From: a virus
IMG/VR virus record: IMGVR_UViG_3300034062_006549
Coordinates: 1-58,071 of that record
Reading direction: 5' to 3' (one strand)
Length of the DNA: 58,071 bases
In this document: positions 489 through 8,991 of the stretch, piece by piece
How positions within the stretch are numbered: the first letter of the stretch is position 1
How the letters are laid out: the number at the start of each line of letters is the position of its first letter
Translations under genes and position numbers: made by a program
Notes under the pieces: generated by a model
The model's input: the letters and a program-made list of their open reading frames with translations, nothing else
Databases searched by the model: none
Told to the model about the DNA's origin: nothing

Positions 489-1862
489 TTAATTTATGTA
501 ATAAAATTGGTCACCTTGGTCTAACATTCTTTCCTTAAACTCTTCAGGAATTATAATGTTTGGATTTGTACCTTTCAAGTTAACAAAGGATAAAGATTCC
601 ATATTATTAATTGATTTTGGTAACTCTTTCAATTCTTTATTGGATGGTAAAGAAAGAATATTCAAATTTTGAAGGTTTCCAATACTCTCAGGTAATGTTT
701 TAACCATATTTTGTAATACTAATCCACTTAAGTCTTTAAATTGTCCGATACTTTCAGGAACATCTAAAGCAATTGTTTGATTTGATGTATTGTTAATGAT
801 TAAGTGTTCAATATCTTTTGGAAGATTTTCAAATAATTCAACAAAACCATATAGTGCCACATAATTACCCGCAGAACCACCAGGATAATTTATCTCAATT
901 TTTTTACCACCCTTAGTTGCCAAACCTTTAGCAAATTCAGATTTAAAGAAATCTTTTAACTCAGAACCTTTACCATTCAAAAATTCAACCAAATTAATTT
1001 GTCTATCATGTCTATCCATAAATTGACTTGATGGGAAATGGAATTGATATCTTTCTTCAGGTAATCCTGTTCTTTTACCTACCTTTCCACCATCATTCTG
1101 TGGGAATACAACGTACAAAGGACCATCTTTGATATATCTTTCAAACCAAGTCAAACCAGGTGCTGATGTACACCAATCAGATTCACCCTCTCTATAGTCT
1201 TTATACCCACCATAATATATTGCAGCATCTTTACTAGTTGCGTTGTTGCCCTCAACTTTTATTAAAACCCAATCTGAACCTTCATATATGATTTGGCCAC
1301 CAGCGTGTTTCAATCCTTCTCTAGTTTTCTTTGCTTGTTTTTTCTCTAGTTCTTTCTGTTTCTTTTCAGGTAACTTGAAATTAGCAAAGATATCTTTAAG
1401 TTGGACAGGTGTTAATTTGTTAATGTCTCTTTGTTCTTGTGGGAGATATTGTTTTACTTTTTCATAGAATTCAAGTTGTTCTCTCATCTTGAATAAGTCC
1501 TCTAAAAACAATTCTCTATATCTTTTTATAGTTTCTTTGAATTCCTTAGATTGTGGATCCATAGACTTCATTTCCTCAGTCATTGCGGGAGCAACAAAGT
1601 GTTTTAACATCCATTGTGTGAATTTACCAACTTTAACGTTATCCATATCCTCAATGGAAGCTCCATCAATATCAAAATTTTCAGGAGCTTTGCTATCAGG
1701 GTCAGCAAATATAATTTGTTTTAATATATCAAATGTCATTAACCCTTTAGCTTTAGGATTTTTTTCTAACGCTTTTTGTGATGGGGTTACCATTTTATCA
1801 TAAAGAACTTTGAATCTCGAATTTTCTACGATAAGTTTTTTAAGTACGGATGTAAATCTCAT
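489..1862 (-). CDS. Leucine-rich-repeat protein with a phage WCT-type central domain
   Basis: This 457-aa protein has three visible parts. Residues 1-190 are helical and charged, with the segment GKFTQWMLKHFVAP and a helix around LEDLFKMREQLEF. Residues about 195-310 hold a beta-rich region with SDWCTSAPGLTWFERYIK followed by GPLYVVFP, a pattern I associate with uncharacterised phage proteins. Residues about 340-440 are leucine-rich repeats (LPESIGNLQNLNILSLPS and similar units, about 23 residues each). LRRs usually bind proteins. The gene may encode a virion-associated or host-interacting protein, which is inference. A late-type motif lies 14 bases upstream and a weaker host-type -7 element further up. 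Confidence 0.65.
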   Translation of the reverse strand: MRFTSVLKKLIVENSRFKVLYDKMVTPSQKALEKNPKAKGLMTFDILKQIIFADPDSKAPENFDIDGASIEDMDNVKVGKFTQWMLKHFVAPAMTEEMKSMDPQSKEFKETIKRYRELFLEDLFKMREQLEFYEKVKQYLPQEQRDINKLTPVQLKDIFANFKLPEKKQKELEKKQAKKTREGLKHAGGQIIYEGSDWVLIKVEGNNATSKDAAIYYGGYKDYREGESDWCTSAPGLTWFERYIKDGPLYVVFPQNDGGKVGKRTGLPEERYQFHFPSSQFMDRHDRQINLVEFLNGKGSELKDFFKSEFAKGLATKGGKKIEINYPGGSAGNYVALYGFVELFENLPKDIEHLIINNTSNQTIALDVPESIGQFKDLSGLVLQNMVKTLPESIGNLQNLNILSLPSNKELKELPKSINNMESLSFVNLKGTNPNIIIPEEFKERMLDQGDQFYYIN

Positions 1863-1967: not shown

Positions 1968-2123
1968 ATGAAACAAGAAAAAGATTGCACAAGTTGTAAA
2001 AAAAAGGTCAAAACTATAAAACCATCACAAATGTTGATGATTGGTCTTTCTGTTTATATTTTTATAAGTGCATTGTATGGTACTTATAAATTAACATCAT
2101 ATCTAATATCTATGTTTTTTTAA
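1968..2123 (+). CDS. Small single-pass membrane protein with CxxC, 51 aa
   Basis: A 51-codon plus-strand frame starts with ATG at 1968 and stops with TAA at 2121-2123. The N-terminus is [15 protein letters not shown], with a CxxC pair flanked by lysines. It is followed by one hydrophobic helix ([19 protein letters not shown]) and a short hydrophobic tail. The positively charged cytoplasm-like N-terminus and single helix suggest an inner-membrane protein. It is divergent from the LRR gene and overlaps the 3' end of the convergent dnaJ gene by 14 bases. Function unknown. The clean architecture and fit in the gap support it being real. Confidence 0.5.
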
Positions 2124-3021
2124 ACTTAACAATTAAGTTAATAATTAAGTCTCCAACAATATTTTCAATCCTGAATCCCTTATTTTTAATTCTCAATGGT
2201 TTAGACGAATCAAATTCATTCGGAAACTTTACAGATAAAATTCCATCAGGATGAGGTACTTCAAAATTTTCCTTATTTAAATCTTCTTTAGTTAAAAAAC
2301 AATTATAAACTAAATCGGTCTCAATTTTGTCAAAGTTCTTTTCGGGTTTAACAATAATTCTAACAACTAGATTACCGAAACTACCATTACTGAAATCCCC
2401 TTTACCTTGCATTCTAAAGAATTGCCCATCACCAATTCCTTTTGGTAATTTTATTTTAATTGTCTCTGTAGTCGGCACAGCACCATTACCAAGACAATTA
2501 TTACATTTAGACTTAAATGTGAATCCTTGACCTCTACAATCATTACAAGGTTGTTTAAATATCTGTGTAAAAAATCCTGAACCCATAGTTACTGTTGTAT
2601 ATCCAACACCATTACATCTATGACAAGTTGATTTTTCACCACCTCTACCATCACATTTATTACAATTAGTAAATCTTTTATATGAAAAGGTTTTTTCTTG
2701 TCCAAAATACGATTCTAACGCACCAACTTCCAAATCAATTACTTTTTCAGGAACACTATTTCTTCTTTGGTTGAAAAAAGAGTTGTTGAATAGGTCTTCA
2801 AAAGTTGCACCTCCACCAAATGGGTTTTTTCTTTGTGTGTCATATTGTTGTCTTTTATTATTATCACTTAATATATCGTAAGCCTCAGATATTTTCTTAA
2901 ATTTTTCTTCATTCCCACCTTTATCTGGGTGATGTTCCATTGCTAACTTTCTATAACTTTTTTTAATCTCATCATTATTTGCTGTTTCTGGAACACCTAA
3001 AATTTCGTAATAATTTTCCAT
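2110..3021 (-). CDS. dnaJ: DnaJ (Hsp40) co-chaperone
   Basis: The 303-aa protein has a complete type A DnaJ layout. The J domain (residues 1-65) starts [15 protein letters not shown] and contains HHPDKGG, the HPD motif that stimulates DnaK ATPase. A Gly/Phe stretch follows ([13 protein letters not shown]). Four CxxCxGxG-type zinc motifs appear between about residues 115 and 180 ([32 protein letters not shown]). The C-terminal beta domain would bind substrate. It is shorter than cellular DnaJ (about 370 aa), mainly in the linker and tail. No dnaK or grpE is present, so it presumably recruits host DnaK for folding or for remodelling phage complexes. Confidence 0.93.
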
Positions 3022-3057: not shown

Positions 3058-3696
3058 ATGAATTATCTAGTTGTCTTATTTAAAAATAAAGAAAAAAGGA
3101 AAATAATCAACAAGTTCAAAACTAAGAAAAAAGCTTTGGACTTCTACAACAAACTTGTTTCTGAGAGTAACGATGTCGTTTTCAATAAAAGTACCGAAAA
3201 TGGTTTTGAATGTTTTTTTGAATTAGCTTTATTAGAGAAAAAAGAAATGAATCAAGATAAAGTTTACATTAAAGATGAATTGGGAAGAACCATATTAGTC
3301 AAAACTGACTCAGAGGACTATAATATATTAAAAATTTCTAACTATAATATTGAGGAAGATTTTGTTGATTATTCTACAAAACAGAAAATTACAAGTTTGG
3401 GTTTAGAAAAAAAATACCTGAGTAAATCAGGTATAAAACTTGTATCTAAATTAAACAACAAGATTGTTGTTCAGAATGATGAAAAAATAAATTTATTTAC
3501 TTTCAAAAATTCAGACGATGCTGATAGGTTTATTACTAGTTTTGAGAAATACTATACCACCAAAAAGAAAGATTGTATATTCGTGAAAGATTACTCATTT
3601 CCACAAAGGAAATATATGTATGAATTACTTACAAACTATGGTTTCCCTAAATCTTATCTTCAGCGATATTCAACAACTCATCCCGTAAAAAAATAA
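3058..3696 (+). CDS. Hypothetical protein, 212 aa
   Basis: Complete plus-strand gene, divergent from dnaJ and convergent with the 82-aa gene, whose 3' end it overlaps by 50 bases. The protein is lysine-rich with mixed alpha/beta character and no membrane segment or signal. The N-terminal 45 residues (NYLVVLFKNKEKRKIINKF, then KKKALDFYNKLV) look like a small strand-helix unit that recurs near residue 150 (INLFTFKNSDDADRFITSF). This suggests two copies of a RAMP-like or phage-type alpha/beta fold. That is inference from shape only and no catalytic motif is recognised. Confidence 0.6.
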   Translation: MNYLVVLFKNKEKRKIINKFKTKKKALDFYNKLVSESNDVVFNKSTENGFECFFELALLEKKEMNQDKVYIKDELGRTILVKTDSEDYNILKISNYNIEEDFVDYSTKQKITSLGLEKKYLSKSGIKLVSKLNNKIVVQNDEKINLFTFKNSDDADRFITSFEKYYTTKKKDCIFVKDYSFPQRKYMYELLTNYGFPKSYLQRYSTTHPVKK

Positions 3697-3895
3697 ATTC
3701 AATACCTGAGATATCAATTTTAAATTGATTGGTATTTGAAAAATTATCAACTTGTGTCTTACTAAAATCGAAATCTTTTTGGTTTAAAGAGAATACAACA
3801 ACAGATCTGCTCTCAGGAAATATTTTTCCTATTTCATCTGATACTAATGCAAGTTTTTCAATCAACCCATTAATACTTTCTTTATTCGTTGCCAT
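3647..3895 (-). CDS. Hypothetical protein, 82 aa
   Basis: Small minus-strand frame with an ATG start. Its 5' end overlaps the 3' end of the 62-aa coiled-coil gene by 34 bases, and its own 3' end overlaps the opposing 212-aa gene by 50 bases. Residues 1-30 are helical (KESINGLIEKLALVSDEIG). The rest alternates strands and helices (SRSVVVFSLNQKDFDF, IDISGIEFIFLRDELL). It starts a string of small overlapping genes between 3.6 and 4.8 kb. I recognise no family. The long convergent overlap lowers confidence slightly. Confidence 0.5.
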   Translation of the reverse strand: MATNKESINGLIEKLALVSDEIGKIFPESRSVVVFSLNQKDFDFSKTQVDNFSNTNQFKIDISGIEFIFLRDELLNIAEDKI

Positions 3896-4050
3896 ATTGT
3901 CAATTTTTTTGGTTTTGTGATTATATTTTCTTTTTTAGTTTTAAGGATTTCATTGATTAGTTTTTCTTTTTGGACTTTAACTTCCAAGCTATCCTTTTGT
4001 TTTTCTTTTTCTAACCAATCAAGTTGTTGTTCTAATTTGTTCTTCATCAT
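3862..4050 (-). CDS. Small basic coiled-coil protein, 62 aa
   Basis: The frame begins with two adjacent ATGs (4048 and 4045). It encodes a highly charged helical peptide (LEQQLDWLEKEKQKDSLEVK, then EKLINEILKTKKEN) with a basic, tryptophan-containing tail (LTIWQRIKKVLMG) that could lie on a membrane surface. It overlaps the genes on both sides, as is usual for this cluster. No family recognised. Confidence 0.5.
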   Translation of the reverse strand: MMKNKLEQQLDWLEKEKQKDSLEVKVQKEKLINEILKTKKENIITKPKKLTIWQRIKKVLMG

Positions 4051-4441
4051 CTTCTAATTGAATTTTTGTCGATTTTTCTACAATGTCAAATTGGAGACCT
4101 TTAAGTTTATCCAAATTTTGTTTTTCAAAAATTTGTTTAAGTTCCTCAACCTTACTTTCAAATAATCTATCTTTTTCTTCTCTTTCCAAATTATATTTAA
4201 TAATATTTTTGATGTTGATGTGTGCTTTTTGTACACCATCTTCAGTAATCTCGGTTACGTAAGAAAAAAGTCTTTCATTTTGTATTTGTGATGTTTGTTC
4301 CATAATTTTATCTTCTTCAACAAACTTCTTAGGTATTTTCCAAGTATTGGGGAAACTAACATCAAATGATAGATAATTTTTAAGTTTTCTTACCGATTGT
4401 AAGTATGGTAATAATGCTGAAAATTCTTGATATAAACTCAT
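4019..4441 (-). CDS. Hypothetical protein, 140 aa
   Basis: Complete frame from ATG at 4441. It overlaps the following gene by 32 bases and the preceding one by 4 bases (ATGA-type junction). The N-terminus (SLYQEFSALLPYLQSVRKLK) is amphipathic, then a region with SFDVSFPNTWKIPKKFVEE, then a long acidic-basic helix (REEKDRLFESKVEELKQIF). The pattern suggests a cytoplasmic protein that forms a coiled coil. I do not recognise the family. The adjacent membrane and DNA-binding genes give no clear functional hint. Confidence 0.6.
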   Translation of the reverse strand: MSLYQEFSALLPYLQSVRKLKNYLSFDVSFPNTWKIPKKFVEEDKIMEQTSQIQNERLFSYVTEITEDGVQKAHINIKNIIKYNLEREEKDRLFESKVEELKQIFEKQNLDKLKGLQFDIVEKSTKIQLEDDEEQIRTTT

Positions 4442-4626
4442 AATTTTATAAAATATGTTAATGTATAGGCTAATGACATTCCTAAGAATATGAGTTCCCT
4501 ATTACTCATAACCATTGGTACTGGTGGATTAGATAATAGAGTACTCATAAACCTATGGATTACTCTGAGGATAATTAATATAGAAAAAATATTCAAAAAT
4601 AGAAATAAACTATCTATATTATACAT
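4438..4626 (-). CDS. Small two-helix membrane protein, 62 aa
   Basis: The protein has two hydrophobic segments: SLFLFLNIFSILIILRVI near the N-terminus and LIFLGMSLAYTLTYFI at the C-terminus, joined by a loop with SNPPVPMVMSNRE. It is probably an inner-membrane hairpin. It overlaps the upstream Hc1 gene by 8 bases and the downstream gene by 4 bases, so it is translationally coupled. A holin-like role is possible from size and topology, but no lysis cassette surrounds it, so I leave the function open. Confidence 0.5.
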   Translation of the reverse strand: MYNIDSLFLFLNIFSILIILRVIHRFMSTLLSNPPVPMVMSNRELIFLGMSLAYTLTYFIKL

Positions 4627-4801
4627 TTTCCTCCTTTTTTCTTTCTTCGAGAATTTCTGTTCTCAGTTTTTGCAATAAATTTTTTAAATCTTGTGCAATT
4701 TTTCTTGCTCTTGTTCCAGCACTATTGTTGCCTTTGAAAAATTTTGTTGTGTCTACTGATAGTTCTTCTGTCAGGGTTTTAATTTTTTCAATTGTTTCCA
4801 T
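4619..4801 (-). CDS. Hc1-family histone H1-like DNA-binding protein
   Basis: This 60-aa protein matches the pattern of the Bacteroidota/Chlamydia Hc1 histone-like family. It has an N-terminal helix (METIEKIKTLTEELSVD), then TKFFKGNNSAGTRARK, then the helix QDLKNLLQKLRTEIL and a charged tail. The AGTRARK and QDLK signature in the middle is what I recognise from cellular homologues. Hc1 proteins bind DNA without much sequence specificity and compact it. In a phage, it could organise the replicating genome or silence host DNA, which is inference. The gene overlaps the next by 8 bases and heads a short cluster of small genes. Confidence 0.8.
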   Translation of the reverse strand: METIEKIKTLTEELSVDTTKFFKGNNSAGTRARKIAQDLKNLLQKLRTEILEERKKEENV

Positions 4802-4871
4802 TTTATGTTTTTTTTTAATTACTTAAAAAGTAAATTTTTTTGGGTTTATGTAAATAAAAAACGTGTTTTTT

Positions 4872-5339
4872 TTAAATTTTAAGACTTCTATCTAACAACT
4901 TATATAGCACAACTATCATATCTAAATCAGATTTTGTAAATGGTTTTTTTATATCAAATAGTTCGTCAAAAAAATTTTTTACAGATTTTTTTATTTTTTC
5001 CTCTTTTTGGTTATAGAATATATCTTCAAAGAATATTTTAAAATAATCAAAATGTTCTCCTTTCAAATCAAAATATAAACCTTCTTTTTTAAAATTTTCG
5101 ATTGTTTTATTCCAACACCATTCAAAATGTTTTTTGTTATCTTCTTTTGTTAAAGTTATTTTTGTTTCAATGGAATTAGTGTTTTCACCCAAATATGTCA
5201 TTTTAATCAGTTCATATAATGATTGACTGAAATCTGAAAATAACTCCATCTTTTCAGGAATTATATTATTCATTTTCAACCAAACATCAACTTCGTCAGG
5301 TGGCACAGGTTTGGATATATAATTAAAAAAATTCTCCAT
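4872..5339 (-). CDS. Hypothetical protein, 155 aa
   Basis: Complete gene with its ATG at 5337-5339 inside a perfect 12-bp hairpin. The protein is all-helical by appearance, rich in Phe, Lys and Glu. Segments include VPPDEVDVWLKMNNIIPEKM, HFEWCWNKTIENFKKEG and a C-terminal FTKSDLDMIVVLYKLLDRSL. No membrane segment or catalytic motif is visible. Codons 2-5 lie in the hairpin 3' arm and U-tract, so expression may depend on readthrough of, or folding in, that structure. Family unknown. Confidence 0.65.
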   Translation of the reverse strand: MENFFNYISKPVPPDEVDVWLKMNNIIPEKMELFSDFSQSLYELIKMTYLGENTNSIETKITLTKEDNKKHFEWCWNKTIENFKKEGLYFDLKGEHFDYFKIFFEDIFYNQKEEKIKKSVKNFFDELFDIKKPFTKSDLDMIVVLYKLLDRSLKI

Positions 5340-5386: not shown

Positions 5387-6910
5387 TTACTGAGTTTTTC
5401 TATTGTAACTGAATAATTGTTTCATTCTTGAGAACTCTTCATTTAAAACTTTAACATTTTTTTCTTCAGTAGATTCTAATTTTAGATTTAATCCTTTTCC
5501 TTTTTCTGTTCCAGTCTTTTCGTTGAAAACAGGTTGGGGTACTCTATTATAAGATTGGTCTTTTAACTTCTTTAAAGTATTCTTCTTTCTCATCTTGTTA
5601 AATCTCTTATTTGTTTCAGAATCTAAAGCATTACCACCAGGTGCATTACCTGTCTTAGAGTCACCATCAAATAATTTATCCATCCAATCTTCATTATAGT
5701 TAATAGCATCAGGAATAGGGAAATTTTGACCAGCAATTTCATAATTGAAATCTTCCAAATCATCAGTCATTTTGTACGCTTTCTTATCCATTTTTGCTAA
5801 CTCACCATTACCCTTAGGGAACATCTTTGGATTCATATCAAATTTACCTTTAGACCCATCCTTTAGGTAATCTTTCATCTTCTTTTCTAATGACTTGAAG
5901 TATTCTTTGTTTTCTTTACCTGAACCTTTGTGGGCTTTCTCATAAACTGTAAGTCCTTTTGGTTTACCTATTGTTTTAAGTCCTAAAGCCTTTTGTTCAA
6001 TAACCAAATTTTCAATCAAATCAACCATTTCATTTTCTGAAAGTCTGATAGTGTCACCCATTCTATCTTTGATATGGTATTCAAGACTCTCTTTTTTCAA
6101 ATCGTAATTTGATTTGTCCTTAAATTTTTTTCCACCTAATTTAAATGTTCCACCTTTTTTAGTCTGAGCTAATTTAGCAGTAAAAGCATTACCTTCTTCT
6201 ACTTCCTCTTCTTCAACATTATGTTTTGATTTTTTACTTTTACGTAAAAGTTTAAAATCTTCAGCATCAATTTTATTGTTTTTGTTTTTATCTAACTTTT
6301 TTTGTTTTCCTTTTAATTCTTCATTTAACATACTTTGATGAATTTCACATCTTTCTTCATCGAATTTATCACTATTTTCATCACAATAGTCATTCAAAAC
6401 GTCCTCATCGGTTATATCTTCCTCATAGTCATCTTCATAGTCATCAAACTCCTCAATATAGTCAAATGATTGTTTTTTTGGAAATTTTCCAGCAACATCA
6501 TAGATTCCTTCATATTTCTCACCACATTCCATACATTCACCTTCTCTCATCATTCCACCACATTCGCACATTTCTCCTTCATTGATTGGTTCAATATCGT
6601 CTTCACCCTCAATATATGGGTCTAAATCATCATCATCACCATATAATTCGTCATCTAAATCAATGTCACGAATAAAATCTTCTTCAGGTGTCAAAGAATC
6701 TCTATCAATATCTCTGAACATATCTTTGAAGTTTACTTTTTTATAATCTCTTGGGTCAAAGTCACGACTATCACCTCTTGTGAATTCATCATCACCATAA
6801 GCTTCTTCTAAATCTTTGATTCTATTCATTAATTTATCGGCCTTGGATTCCAAAGTTTCATTAATGGCTCTTCTTAATAAGTTTTTGTAGTATCTTTCTG
6901 AGTTTTTCAT
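5387..6910 (-). CDS. Acidic low-complexity phage protein with zinc-ribbon and EF-hand-like loop
   Basis: The 507-aa protein starts MKNSERYYKNLLRRAIN and has a strongly acidic region (residues about 40-180, many Asp/Glu). Within it is a zinc-ribbon-like motif, CECGGMMREGECMECG. Around residue 200 lies an EF-hand-like loop, LDKNKNNKIDAEDFKLLR, with Asp/Asn at the expected calcium positions. A segment IRLSENEMVDLIENLVIEQ follows, then a basic region, and the tail ends EEFSRMKQLFSYNRKTQ. Such patchwork charged proteins are often minor virion or scaffold-associated proteins, which is inference. A late-type motif sits 13 bases upstream and a terminator hairpin follows the stop. Confidence 0.6.
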   Translation of the reverse strand: MKNSERYYKNLLRRAINETLESKADKLMNRIKDLEEAYGDDEFTRGDSRDFDPRDYKKVNFKDMFRDIDRDSLTPEEDFIRDIDLDDELYGDDDDLDPYIEGEDDIEPINEGEMCECGGMMREGECMECGEKYEGIYDVAGKFPKKQSFDYIEEFDDYEDDYEEDITDEDVLNDYCDENSDKFDEERCEIHQSMLNEELKGKQKKLDKNKNNKIDAEDFKLLRKSKKSKHNVEEEEVEEGNAFTAKLAQTKKGGTFKLGGKKFKDKSNYDLKKESLEYHIKDRMGDTIRLSENEMVDLIENLVIEQKALGLKTIGKPKGLTVYEKAHKGSGKENKEYFKSLEKKMKDYLKDGSKGKFDMNPKMFPKGNGELAKMDKKAYKMTDDLEDFNYEIAGQNFPIPDAINYNEDWMDKLFDGDSKTGNAPGGNALDSETNKRFNKMRKKNTLKKLKDQSYNRVPQPVFNEKTGTEKGKGLNLKLESTEEKNVKVLNEEFSRMKQLFSYNRKTQ

Positions 6911-6931: not shown

Positions 6932-7783
6932 TTATCTTTTTCCTTTGTGTAAATTTTGGATAAGTAATTTTTTAATGTATTGTTCACTAATGTTATATTT
7001 TTCACTTAATTCTGATACAATTTTATCAAGTTTTTGTTCATTAGTTAAATTAAGTGCATTAATATCACCCTGATTACAATAAGGGAATGTTTTACATTCC
7101 TTTTTAACTTGAACGAATTGTCCACCAGGAATCTGAGTTTTAGATTTACCTCTCCAATGTTTCTTTTTTGTTGATTTAGCCCAAGCCGCAGGTGTAACAT
7201 AAGCTCCTGCAGAACCTGAACCAGTTGCTTCTTTAGTTTCAACTTTTTTGGGTGTTTCCTTGAAACTATCTTTCACAAATTTAGAATTGGGGTTGAACCC
7301 AACAGGTGCAAGAAATCCACCAGCTGAACCTGAACCAGTCGCTTCTTTAGTCTCTTTTTTCTTTTTACCTTGACAATGTGCTCTTTGACTAAACCCTTTG
7401 GGGTGAGTACAATCTACACTATCTTTATATTTTTGACTCCATTTTTCTTCAACTTCTTTTTTTGTCATTTTGATGGAATCTTTCGTAGTCTTTTTATTCT
7501 CTTTAGTTTCTGTTTTTTTCATAGAGAAAACTTTACCAATAGGTAAATTCATTTTCTTATTACCCACCAAATCTTTGATTTGTGATTTTTTTATTTTTCT
7601 TTTAATTATGGGTGTTTTATCCTCATCTACAGCACGTTTGAATTTATCTTTAGTGTCACTCATATCTGATAAAGATGATGAGTCGTAATCAGATGGGTTC
7701 ATTAAATTACTTACTTTTGAAAATTCAGACCCCATTGTAGTTGATAAGTTTTTACCAAATTGACTTTCTTTAATTTCTCTCAT
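6932..7783 (-). CDS. Basic low-complexity phage protein with duplicated ATGSGSAG segments
   Basis: A 283-aa lysine-rich protein. Recognisable segments are DCTHPKGFSQRAHCQGKKKK (a Cys/His cluster seen in diverse phage proteins), two copies of KEATGSGSAG followed by related sequence, and KKHWRGKSKTQIPGGQFVQV leading to CKTFPYCNQGDINAL. The C-terminus resembles a small helix-turn-helix (EKYNISEQYIKKLLIQ). The Cys-containing segments could bind zinc. I associate these segments with uncharacterised proteins encoded in phage structural regions. The start overlaps the upstream gene by 14 bases. The function is unknown. Confidence 0.55.
   Translation of the reverse strand: MREIKESQFGKNLSTTMGSEFSKVSNLMNPSDYDSSSLSDMSDTKDKFKRAVDEDKTPIIKRKIKKSQIKDLVGNKKMNLPIGKVFSMKKTETKENKKTTKDSIKMTKKEVEEKWSQKYKDSVDCTHPKGFSQRAHCQGKKKKETKEATGSGSAGGFLAPVGFNPNSKFVKDSFKETPKKVETKEATGSGSAGAYVTPAAWAKSTKKKHWRGKSKTQIPGGQFVQVKKECKTFPYCNQGDINALNLTNEQKLDKIVSELSEKYNISEQYIKKLLIQNLHKGKR
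7206..7354 (-). repeat. Imperfect direct repeat within the 283-aa gene
   Basis: Two copies of a roughly 34-base unit (about 7206-7240 and 7321-7354) encode KETKEATGSGSAG-like peptides. They differ at a few positions. The spacing of about 115 bases covers one protein repeat unit. Confidence 0.6.
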
Positions 7784-8402
7784 CTGATATTTTTGTTGTT
7801 TTACGATTACCTAAAATTTTAGCCCATTTTGATTTAAATTTTTCATAGTACCCTTTTAATTTTTGTACTACTTCCATAAAATCATCTGACATAGTTATCA
7901 TCTCACCTTTCATATAAACACCATTTTCTTCACCAACTAAGTACATAAAATCAACATTAAACTCAATAAGTTTACCCGACCATTCAACAGAATTTGGATA
8001 TACATTTAGTTGATTAAATTCAACTAAGTCGGAAACTTCATTTACGAATTCTTCCATAGTTTCTTGGAATGCTGTTTTCTCGTCACTAGTGAGTTTCAAT
8101 TCTTTTTGGTCTTTACCATGAAAAACTAATAACCCACCTGAAATTCTATATGTTTCTCTTTTATCTCTTTTACTTTTTTTATCCATTCCTTCATCCTCAA
8201 GCTCATCATCTTCAATTTCAGTTTCAACTGATTTTGCAACATTTATTTTTTTTGTTGGATTGGATGAAGTTAAGTCATATTGTTCATTAAGAATTCCATA
8301 TTGTTTTTTTATACTTTGAAATTCTAACAAGGAATCTTTAGTTGATAGCATACTTCTTGATGCCTCCAATAATTTTTTTATTTCATCGTGTTTGTTATAC
8401 AT
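7770..8402 (-). CDS. Hypothetical protein, 210 aa
   Basis: An upstream ATG at 8435 exists, but I prefer ATG at 8400-8402 (MYNKHDEIKKLLEAS), because it overlaps the amidase-like gene by only 8 bases instead of 41. Residues 1-60 are helical, 65-95 are a charged linker (EIEDDELEDEGMDKKSKRDK), and residues 95-200 alternate strands (ISGGLLVFHGK, SVEWSGKLIEFNVDFMYLV) and end in a helix. The C-terminal region may be a compact alpha/beta domain. No known motif is visible. It sits between the amidase-like and the ATGSGSAG-repeat genes and overlaps the latter by 14 bases. Confidence 0.6.
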   Translation of the reverse strand: MYNKHDEIKKLLEASRSMLSTKDSLLEFQSIKKQYGILNEQYDLTSSNPTKKINVAKSVETEIEDDELEDEGMDKKSKRDKRETYRISGGLLVFHGKDQKELKLTSDEKTAFQETMEEFVNEVSDLVEFNQLNVYPNSVEWSGKLIEFNVDFMYLVGEENGVYMKGEMITMSDDFMEVVQKLKGYYEKFKSKWAKILGNRKTTKISDERN

Positions 8403-8991
8403 TTTCAATTTTGTTTCTAAAAATTTCAAAATCAAAGGCGGGACTTAAATCAGTAAAATTTGAATCAAAATTACTTCTCGTCACAATACCTTCAAATTTT
8501 TCAATACCATTTATTTTTGTGTTATGCTCAATTACTTCTTTTGACATTCGCATTTCTTTCACAATGTTCTTACAAAGTATAGATAAAGATTCTATTTGTA
8601 CTTCCTTGTATGGATCCCAAAAAAAATAATCACGCCATTTTCTTTCAAATGACTTACCTTTATAAATATCACCTATCCAATTAACGTATTGGTTTTCTAA
8701 TGGTTGTTTTTCTAACCATCCCAAATTTTCTAAACTTACAATTATTGAATTTCTATTTAAGTTTATTTCAGAAAAAAATTCTGTGTGTTCAATATTTTCC
8801 AATAATTGTAATACTTTACCTTCTTTTGTTATAATATAATTTGGAATTCTTTTATAAGTTCCATTATACCTATAACGTAAAGAAGCCAAATAATTCTCCA
8901 CATTTCTACTAGTGTGTGTAAGAATTATTTGACTCTTCTTTTTTTGTTTACCAAGAGGTTTAAAGTTACCATATTTGATTATGTCTATCAT
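8395..8991 (-). CDS. Amidase_2/PGRP-fold protein, probably catalytically altered
   Basis: The 198-aa protein shows the order of an N-acetylmuramoyl-L-alanine amidase (Amidase_2). These are SQIILTHTSRN (strand with the first zinc His), IPNYIITKEGKVLQLLENIE followed by HTEF, NRNSIIVSLENLGWL, and FEGIVTRSNFDSNFTDLSPAF near the end. In active enzymes the last segment reads roughly GHxD...DPGPxF, giving a second His. Here the His position carries Thr or Arg, while the Asp is kept. The fold is therefore likely but hydrolysis is doubtful. It may bind peptidoglycan instead. The stop of the upstream gene overlaps the ATG by 4 bases. Confidence 0.65.
   Translation of the reverse strand: MIDIIKYGNFKPLGKQKKKSQIILTHTSRNVENYLASLRYRYNGTYKRIPNYIITKEGKVLQLLENIEHTEFFSEINLNRNSIIVSLENLGWLEKQPLENQYVNWIGDIYKGKSFERKWRDYFFWDPYKEVQIESLSILCKNIVKEMRMSKEVIEHNTKINGIEKFEGIVTRSNFDSNFTDLSPAFDFEIFRNKIENV

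Follow-up and report, generated by a model that had tools for sequence, protein, structure and literature searches.

The analysed stretch of DNA (hereafter the window) is IMG/VR virus record IMGVR_UViG_3300034062_006549, 58,071 nucleotides long. This fragment carries neither a capsid gene nor a family B polymerase (PolB) gene; it encodes a DnaB-like helicase, primase, sigma factor, SbcC-like nuclease subunit, ribonucleotide reductase, baseplate wedge and RuvC-like resolvase. A short open reading frame on its minus strand begins with ATG and codes for a protein of 60 amino acids, METIEKIKTLTEELSVDTTKFFKGNNSAGTRARKIAQDLKNLLQKLRTEILEERKKEENV (Table 1). Pfam HMM search assigned this product to the Hc1 family (PF07432.18, E 7.1e-19) with 67.9 bits against a gathering score of 23.5 bits, the alignment covering residues 1-56 of the product and positions 1-57 of the 57-position model. 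All rival coiled-coil families scored below 18 bits in the Pfam search, under their own cut-offs, and PHROGs contained no Hc1 family match for the protein. The window protein is thus a bona fide member of the Hc1 family, as the initial annotation had proposed, and both motifs cited there are present. Chance origin of the reading frame can be ruled out by its HMM score and because median dN/dS is about 0.19 (NG86; 58 loci and the window), indicative of purifying selection, ten residues are invariant in phages and bacteria alike, and the gene neighbourhood is syntenic in all 75 distinct loci. The claim that the gene is phage-encoded is equally supported. Only one copy of hc1 is present in the window and in each large relative.

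Table 1. Features of the hc1 neighbourhood in the window.
Feature	Position	Strand	Evidence and conservation
DnaJ co-chaperone	2110..3021	minus	PF00226, PF01556 and PF00684 above cut-off; 73/75 loci
Conserved 212-aa protein	3058..3696	plus	75/75 loci; strand opposite to Hc1
Conserved 82-aa protein	3647..3895	minus	71/75 loci
Conserved 62-aa protein	3862..4050	minus	68/75 loci
Conserved 140-aa protein	4019..4441	minus	75/75 loci
Hydrophobic 62-aa protein, probably two membrane helices	4438..4626	minus	Position +1 in 70/75 loci
Hc1-domain protein, 60 aa	4619..4801	minus	PF07432 score, AlphaFold hairpin, dN/dS
Hc1 promoter-like element	4826..4854	minus	TTTACA (4849-4854), 16-base gap, TACTTTT (TAnnTTT type)
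155-aa protein, directly upstream of Hc1	4872..5339	minus	74/75 loci
Acidic 507-aa protein	5387..6910	minus	EF-hand-like stretch below cut-off; 71/75 loci
283-aa protein	6932..7783	minus	Weak Gp23 capsid N-terminal match, 21.7 vs 24.4-bit cut-off; 69/75 loci
N-acetylmuramoyl-L-alanine amidase (probable endolysin)	8395..8991	minus	PF01510, 31.3 vs 26 bits; 68/75 loci

Gene order around hc1 is the same in 75 distinct loci of the T4-type jumbo phage lineage to which the window belongs: amidase, 221-aa, 283-aa, 507-aa and 155-aa proteins, Hc1, the 62-aa membrane protein (its gene shares 8 bases with the end of hc1), then 140-aa, 62-aa and 82-aa proteins, the 212-aa protein on the opposite strand and DnaJ. 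Since these 75 loci had been found by Hc1 itself, the 155-aa gene was also used as bait; hc1 lies directly downstream of it in 80 of 80 loci (the best 80 of 382, some of them near-copies). Neighbours are unchanged even where Hc1 itself is divergent (L486, L489-L500). A search with the capsid gene as bait returned mainly fragments shorter than 180 kb without the hc1 region. Hc1 is a core gene of this lineage. The cluster had been described as otherwise unknown; this holds for the immediate neighbours, which lack an assigned family, but not for the whole, which is an old conserved cluster flanked by dnaJ and amidase genes. The 155-aa protein is predicted by AlphaFold to be all-helical (pLDDT 88), and fold search with it gave zero matches.

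Several neighbours have features of their own. The phage DnaJ likewise belongs to the lineage core. The 507-aa protein is very acidic, its EF-hand-like stretch reads DKNKNNKIDAEDF, and its gene is also preceded by an element resembling the hc1 promoter (11.4 bits). Repeated EATGSGSAGG-type motifs occur in the 283-aa protein along with a KxCKxFPYCNQGDI stretch, in which PYC is found in 66 of 66 homologues; judged by its sequence, this protein is possibly scaffold- or capsid-related.

Of 14 large relatives of the window, 11 encode a T4-type major capsid protein and 13 a family B polymerase. Among records with a named isolate, the capsid protein comes closest to those of Microcystis phage Mel-JY01 and Flavobacterium phage immuto (40-43% identity), and the host of this giant phage is probably a member of Bacteroidota. 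Going by description, the lineage is like the recently reported "moraphages" (Perez-Hernandez et al. 2025, PMC12619734) in jumbo size, T4-type capsid and PolB. Moraphages are mostly from fresh water, have predicted Bacteroidota hosts and in some cases DnaJ, and PF07432 is recorded in four complete jumbo genomes. Lysine-tRNA ligase is given there for 24 of 28 moraphages; its domain (PF00152) occurs in only 5 of 17 records. Presence of Hc1 in such phages is therefore already known. The text consulted describes neither synteny nor a tree nor a promoter of the PF07432 gene; core status, fixed synteny, the single old origin and the putative own promoter are new.

Phages had been thought to carry Hc1 only rarely, a notion that is corrected here. 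A first search of IMG/VR retrieved 44 close relatives, and profile search extended these to at least 384 stretches on contigs of up to 322 kb. Rarity is also contradicted by 443 further stretches with Hc1 of cyanophage type and 52 with a Bacteroidota-like type, some of the latter coming from the window's own syntenic lineage, as well as by the moraphage genomes. Flavobacterium phage immuto was considered as an isolate with Hc1 and rejected, its match being sub-threshold and lacking the GNxxAGTR motif. The gene in question (57 aa; L594 3217-3390, MW353176.1 42216-42389) scores 21 bits and is located after GroEL, with a chitinase-holin pair following about 2 kb further on; it may be a diverged Hc1 relative.

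To estimate relationships between these proteins, a phylogenetic tree was constructed from 68 rows and 62 columns, in which deep branching is weak. The window protein groups with cellular homologues and not as an unrelated coiled coil. All jumbo-phage copies form one clade with a long stem (support 99/95), and this clade falls on the side of Bacteroidota and huge phages with weak support (92/79), Bacteroidota being sampled by four megaplasmid copies. Bacteroidota origin of phage Hc1 is possible on this topology. Recent capture of a host gene is unsupported, as the copies fall into one old clade that has a synteny of its own. Hc1 proteins of huge phages (462-642 kb) are placed near Bacteroidota, and that of Synechococcus phage S-SRM01, a T4-type cyanophage, clusters with sequences from proteobacterial metagenome-assembled genomes (MAGs). 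The S-SRM01 protein, annotated as "Histone H1", has the same domain as the window protein; its type represents a separate acquisition with different neighbours (tail lysozyme and a 134-aa membrane protein). Since S-SRM01 and huge-phage copies group apart, phages gained Hc1 more than once, and the jumbo clade descends from one old acquisition, independent of at least two others. In addition, Hc1 genes of alphaproteobacterial and rickettsial MAGs (L137, L148) group with the cyanophage copy; they may be genuine bacterial genes or stem from phage contigs that ended up in the bins.

In bacteria, a search around one Fibrobacterota genome found stand-alone Hc1 in 51 of the 61 genomes it covered, and PF07432 is also found in the control genome of Bacteroides ihuae and in Bacteroidota plasmids. 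As in the phage, stand-alone proteins from Fibrobacterota and Bacteroidota are mostly 53-69 aa long, contain GNxxAGTRxR, have a net charge of about +2 and lack a lysine-rich tail. Phage proteins nevertheless share only 37-45% identity with Fibrobacterota and other aligned bacterial members, and the four Bacteroidota (Cytophagales) copies have one additional residue ahead of the GN motif. Literature search found no function for the short Hc1 proteins of Fibrobacterota and Bacteroidota. A phage core gene with its putative own promoter, together with independent uptakes, would make this function testable in infection.

The AlphaFold model of the window protein is a two-helix hairpin (mean pLDDT 96; the modelled chain lacks the initiator methionine, the reference beginning at codon 2), which differs from both the histone fold and the winged helix of eukaryotic H1. 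Fold search of PDB gave no match at E <= 0.001, and among solved structures none is significantly related by sequence. Ten residues are invariant in phages and bacteria: K20, G24, N25, S27, A28, G29, R31, R33, R47 and I50. They concentrate at the turn and the beginning of helix 2, followed by R47 and I50; four are basic (K20, R31, R33, R47) and none is acidic. The turn carries the GNx[SA]AGTRxR motif with basic flanks, and the tip of the hairpin is basic and invariant (K..GNxSAGTRARK). Median net charge of the turn segment is +5 in phages and +4 in bacteria, compared to +2 for the whole protein.

The N-terminal domain of chlamydial Hc1 (HctA) is homologous to the phage protein (Pfam family) and mediates dimerisation, the other domain binding DNA (PMC2848022). 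The phage protein is about half as long; it ends at residue 60, without the lysine-rich C-terminal DNA-binding half of HctA, and the domain occupies the entire 56-64 aa of nearly all phage copies. Like stand-alone bacterial forms, phage Hc1 thus consists of the dimerisation-type domain alone, and by analogy it probably dimerises. Given that it has no lysine-rich tail and a net charge of only +2, its designation as a DNA-compacting histone is unproven. The same division of labour in the chlamydial protein could mean that phage Hc1 does not bind DNA at all and is a helical dimerisation module regulating a partner, e.g. the 155-aa protein or lysis or membrane proteins. The nearly constant adjacency of the 155-aa and 62-aa membrane genes fits such a role. 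We consider it unlikely, given that the basic tip is invariant in phage and bacterial stand-alone Hc1 and that other phage lineages have Hc1 without these neighbours. In the predicted structure, the basic tip may contact nucleic acid.

Upstream regions of hc1 contain a conserved element. Motif sampling in 53 distinct upstream sequences detected TTTAC about 60-70 bases ahead of the start codon, with log-likelihood of 650 compared to 309 in shuffled sequence. TTTACW is followed by TAnnTTT after a gap of 16 bases in 21 upstreams and of 17 bases in 4, where about 0.5 would be expected for each. Primary promoters of Bacteroidota are of the TTG / TAnnTTTG type, and the sequence of the hc1 element fits this type. 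Since the bare pattern is no rarer than chance in the 58-kb window, evidence for a promoter consists in its conservation at hc1. When a 322-kb relative was scanned, the site at hc1 reached 22.9 bits, that of one other gene 16.0 and all remaining ones stayed below 11; the motif is thus nearly private to hc1, which is therefore probably a separate, specially transcribed unit. A shared phage promoter class was dismissed as a guide to timing for the same reason, and timing of expression cannot be deduced from the promoter.

A promoter of the host's primary type could equally drive early expression. Hc1 might then take part in host takeover, binding or competing on the host nucleoid and shutting down or re-routing host transcription, perhaps in mixed dimers with Hc1 from the host. 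Occurrence of PF07432 in Bacteroides ihuae and Bacteroidota plasmids means that a host target could exist, the near-exclusive use of a Bacteroidota-type promoter in the scanned relative suits this role, and chlamydial Hc1 reduces protein and DNA synthesis in E. coli, according to work cited in the moraphage report (PMC12619734). This chlamydial effect, however, may require the C-terminal domain that phage Hc1 lacks, the phage's own RpoD-like sigma factor may read the same promoter, and a cluster holding amidase and capsid-like genes is not obviously early. Early action on the host is therefore somewhat doubtful.

Late expression is favoured by the amidase and the Gp23-like gene within the cluster. 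In three phage lineages that acquired it independently, hc1 has lysis genes close by. The amidase of the window lineage lies 3.6-4.6 kb from hc1 (3.6 kb upstream in the window, 4.4-4.6 kb in G005 and G018), tail lysozyme (PF18013) and phage lysozyme (PF00959) are near it in the cyanophage lineage (L509-L588), and a holin (PF23987) is near it in L474-L483. Such proximity suggests late expression, although it is not general: in huge phages LR745206 and LR756502 the nearest amidase is 90 kb and 31 kb away, respectively. The major capsid gene is also far from hc1 (about 186 kb in the G005 record and 163 kb in G001). Extended to large phages in general, stand-alone Hc1 might be a late tool, captured at least three times and kept beside lysis genes, that acts on DNA inside the cell as packaging gives way to lysis; we regard this generalization as rather improbable.

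Our preferred explanation, put forward tentatively, is that Hc1 acts on phage DNA as a small dimeric nucleoid-associated protein, expressed from its own promoter, probably late, and ordering DNA for packaging. We infer that the hairpin would dimerise in the manner of its homologous chlamydial N-terminus and touch nucleic acid through the basic tip (K20, K23, R31, R33 and K34 around the GNxSAG turn). The protein would be abundant, with a strong Bacteroidota-type promoter of its own that is probably active in the late phase, and would coat phage DNA or order it, either ahead of packaging or while this proceeds. Hc1 might also be part of the virion, entering the capsid along with the genome and being injected to neutralise DNA charge or protect entering DNA. 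Authors of the moraphage report propose genome compaction during packaging (PMC12619734). A virion role also agrees with the jumbo genome size of about 320 kb, with the core status of hc1 and with the presence, in its cluster, of a protein weakly matching the Gp23 N-terminal region. A role inside the virion is nonetheless quite unlikely, as a net charge of +2 is too low to neutralise much DNA and the 56-64 aa copies have no recognisable head-targeting extension.

Elsewhere in the window, a 457-aa protein (489-1862, minus strand) contains C-terminal leucine-rich repeats, which are unusual for a phage.
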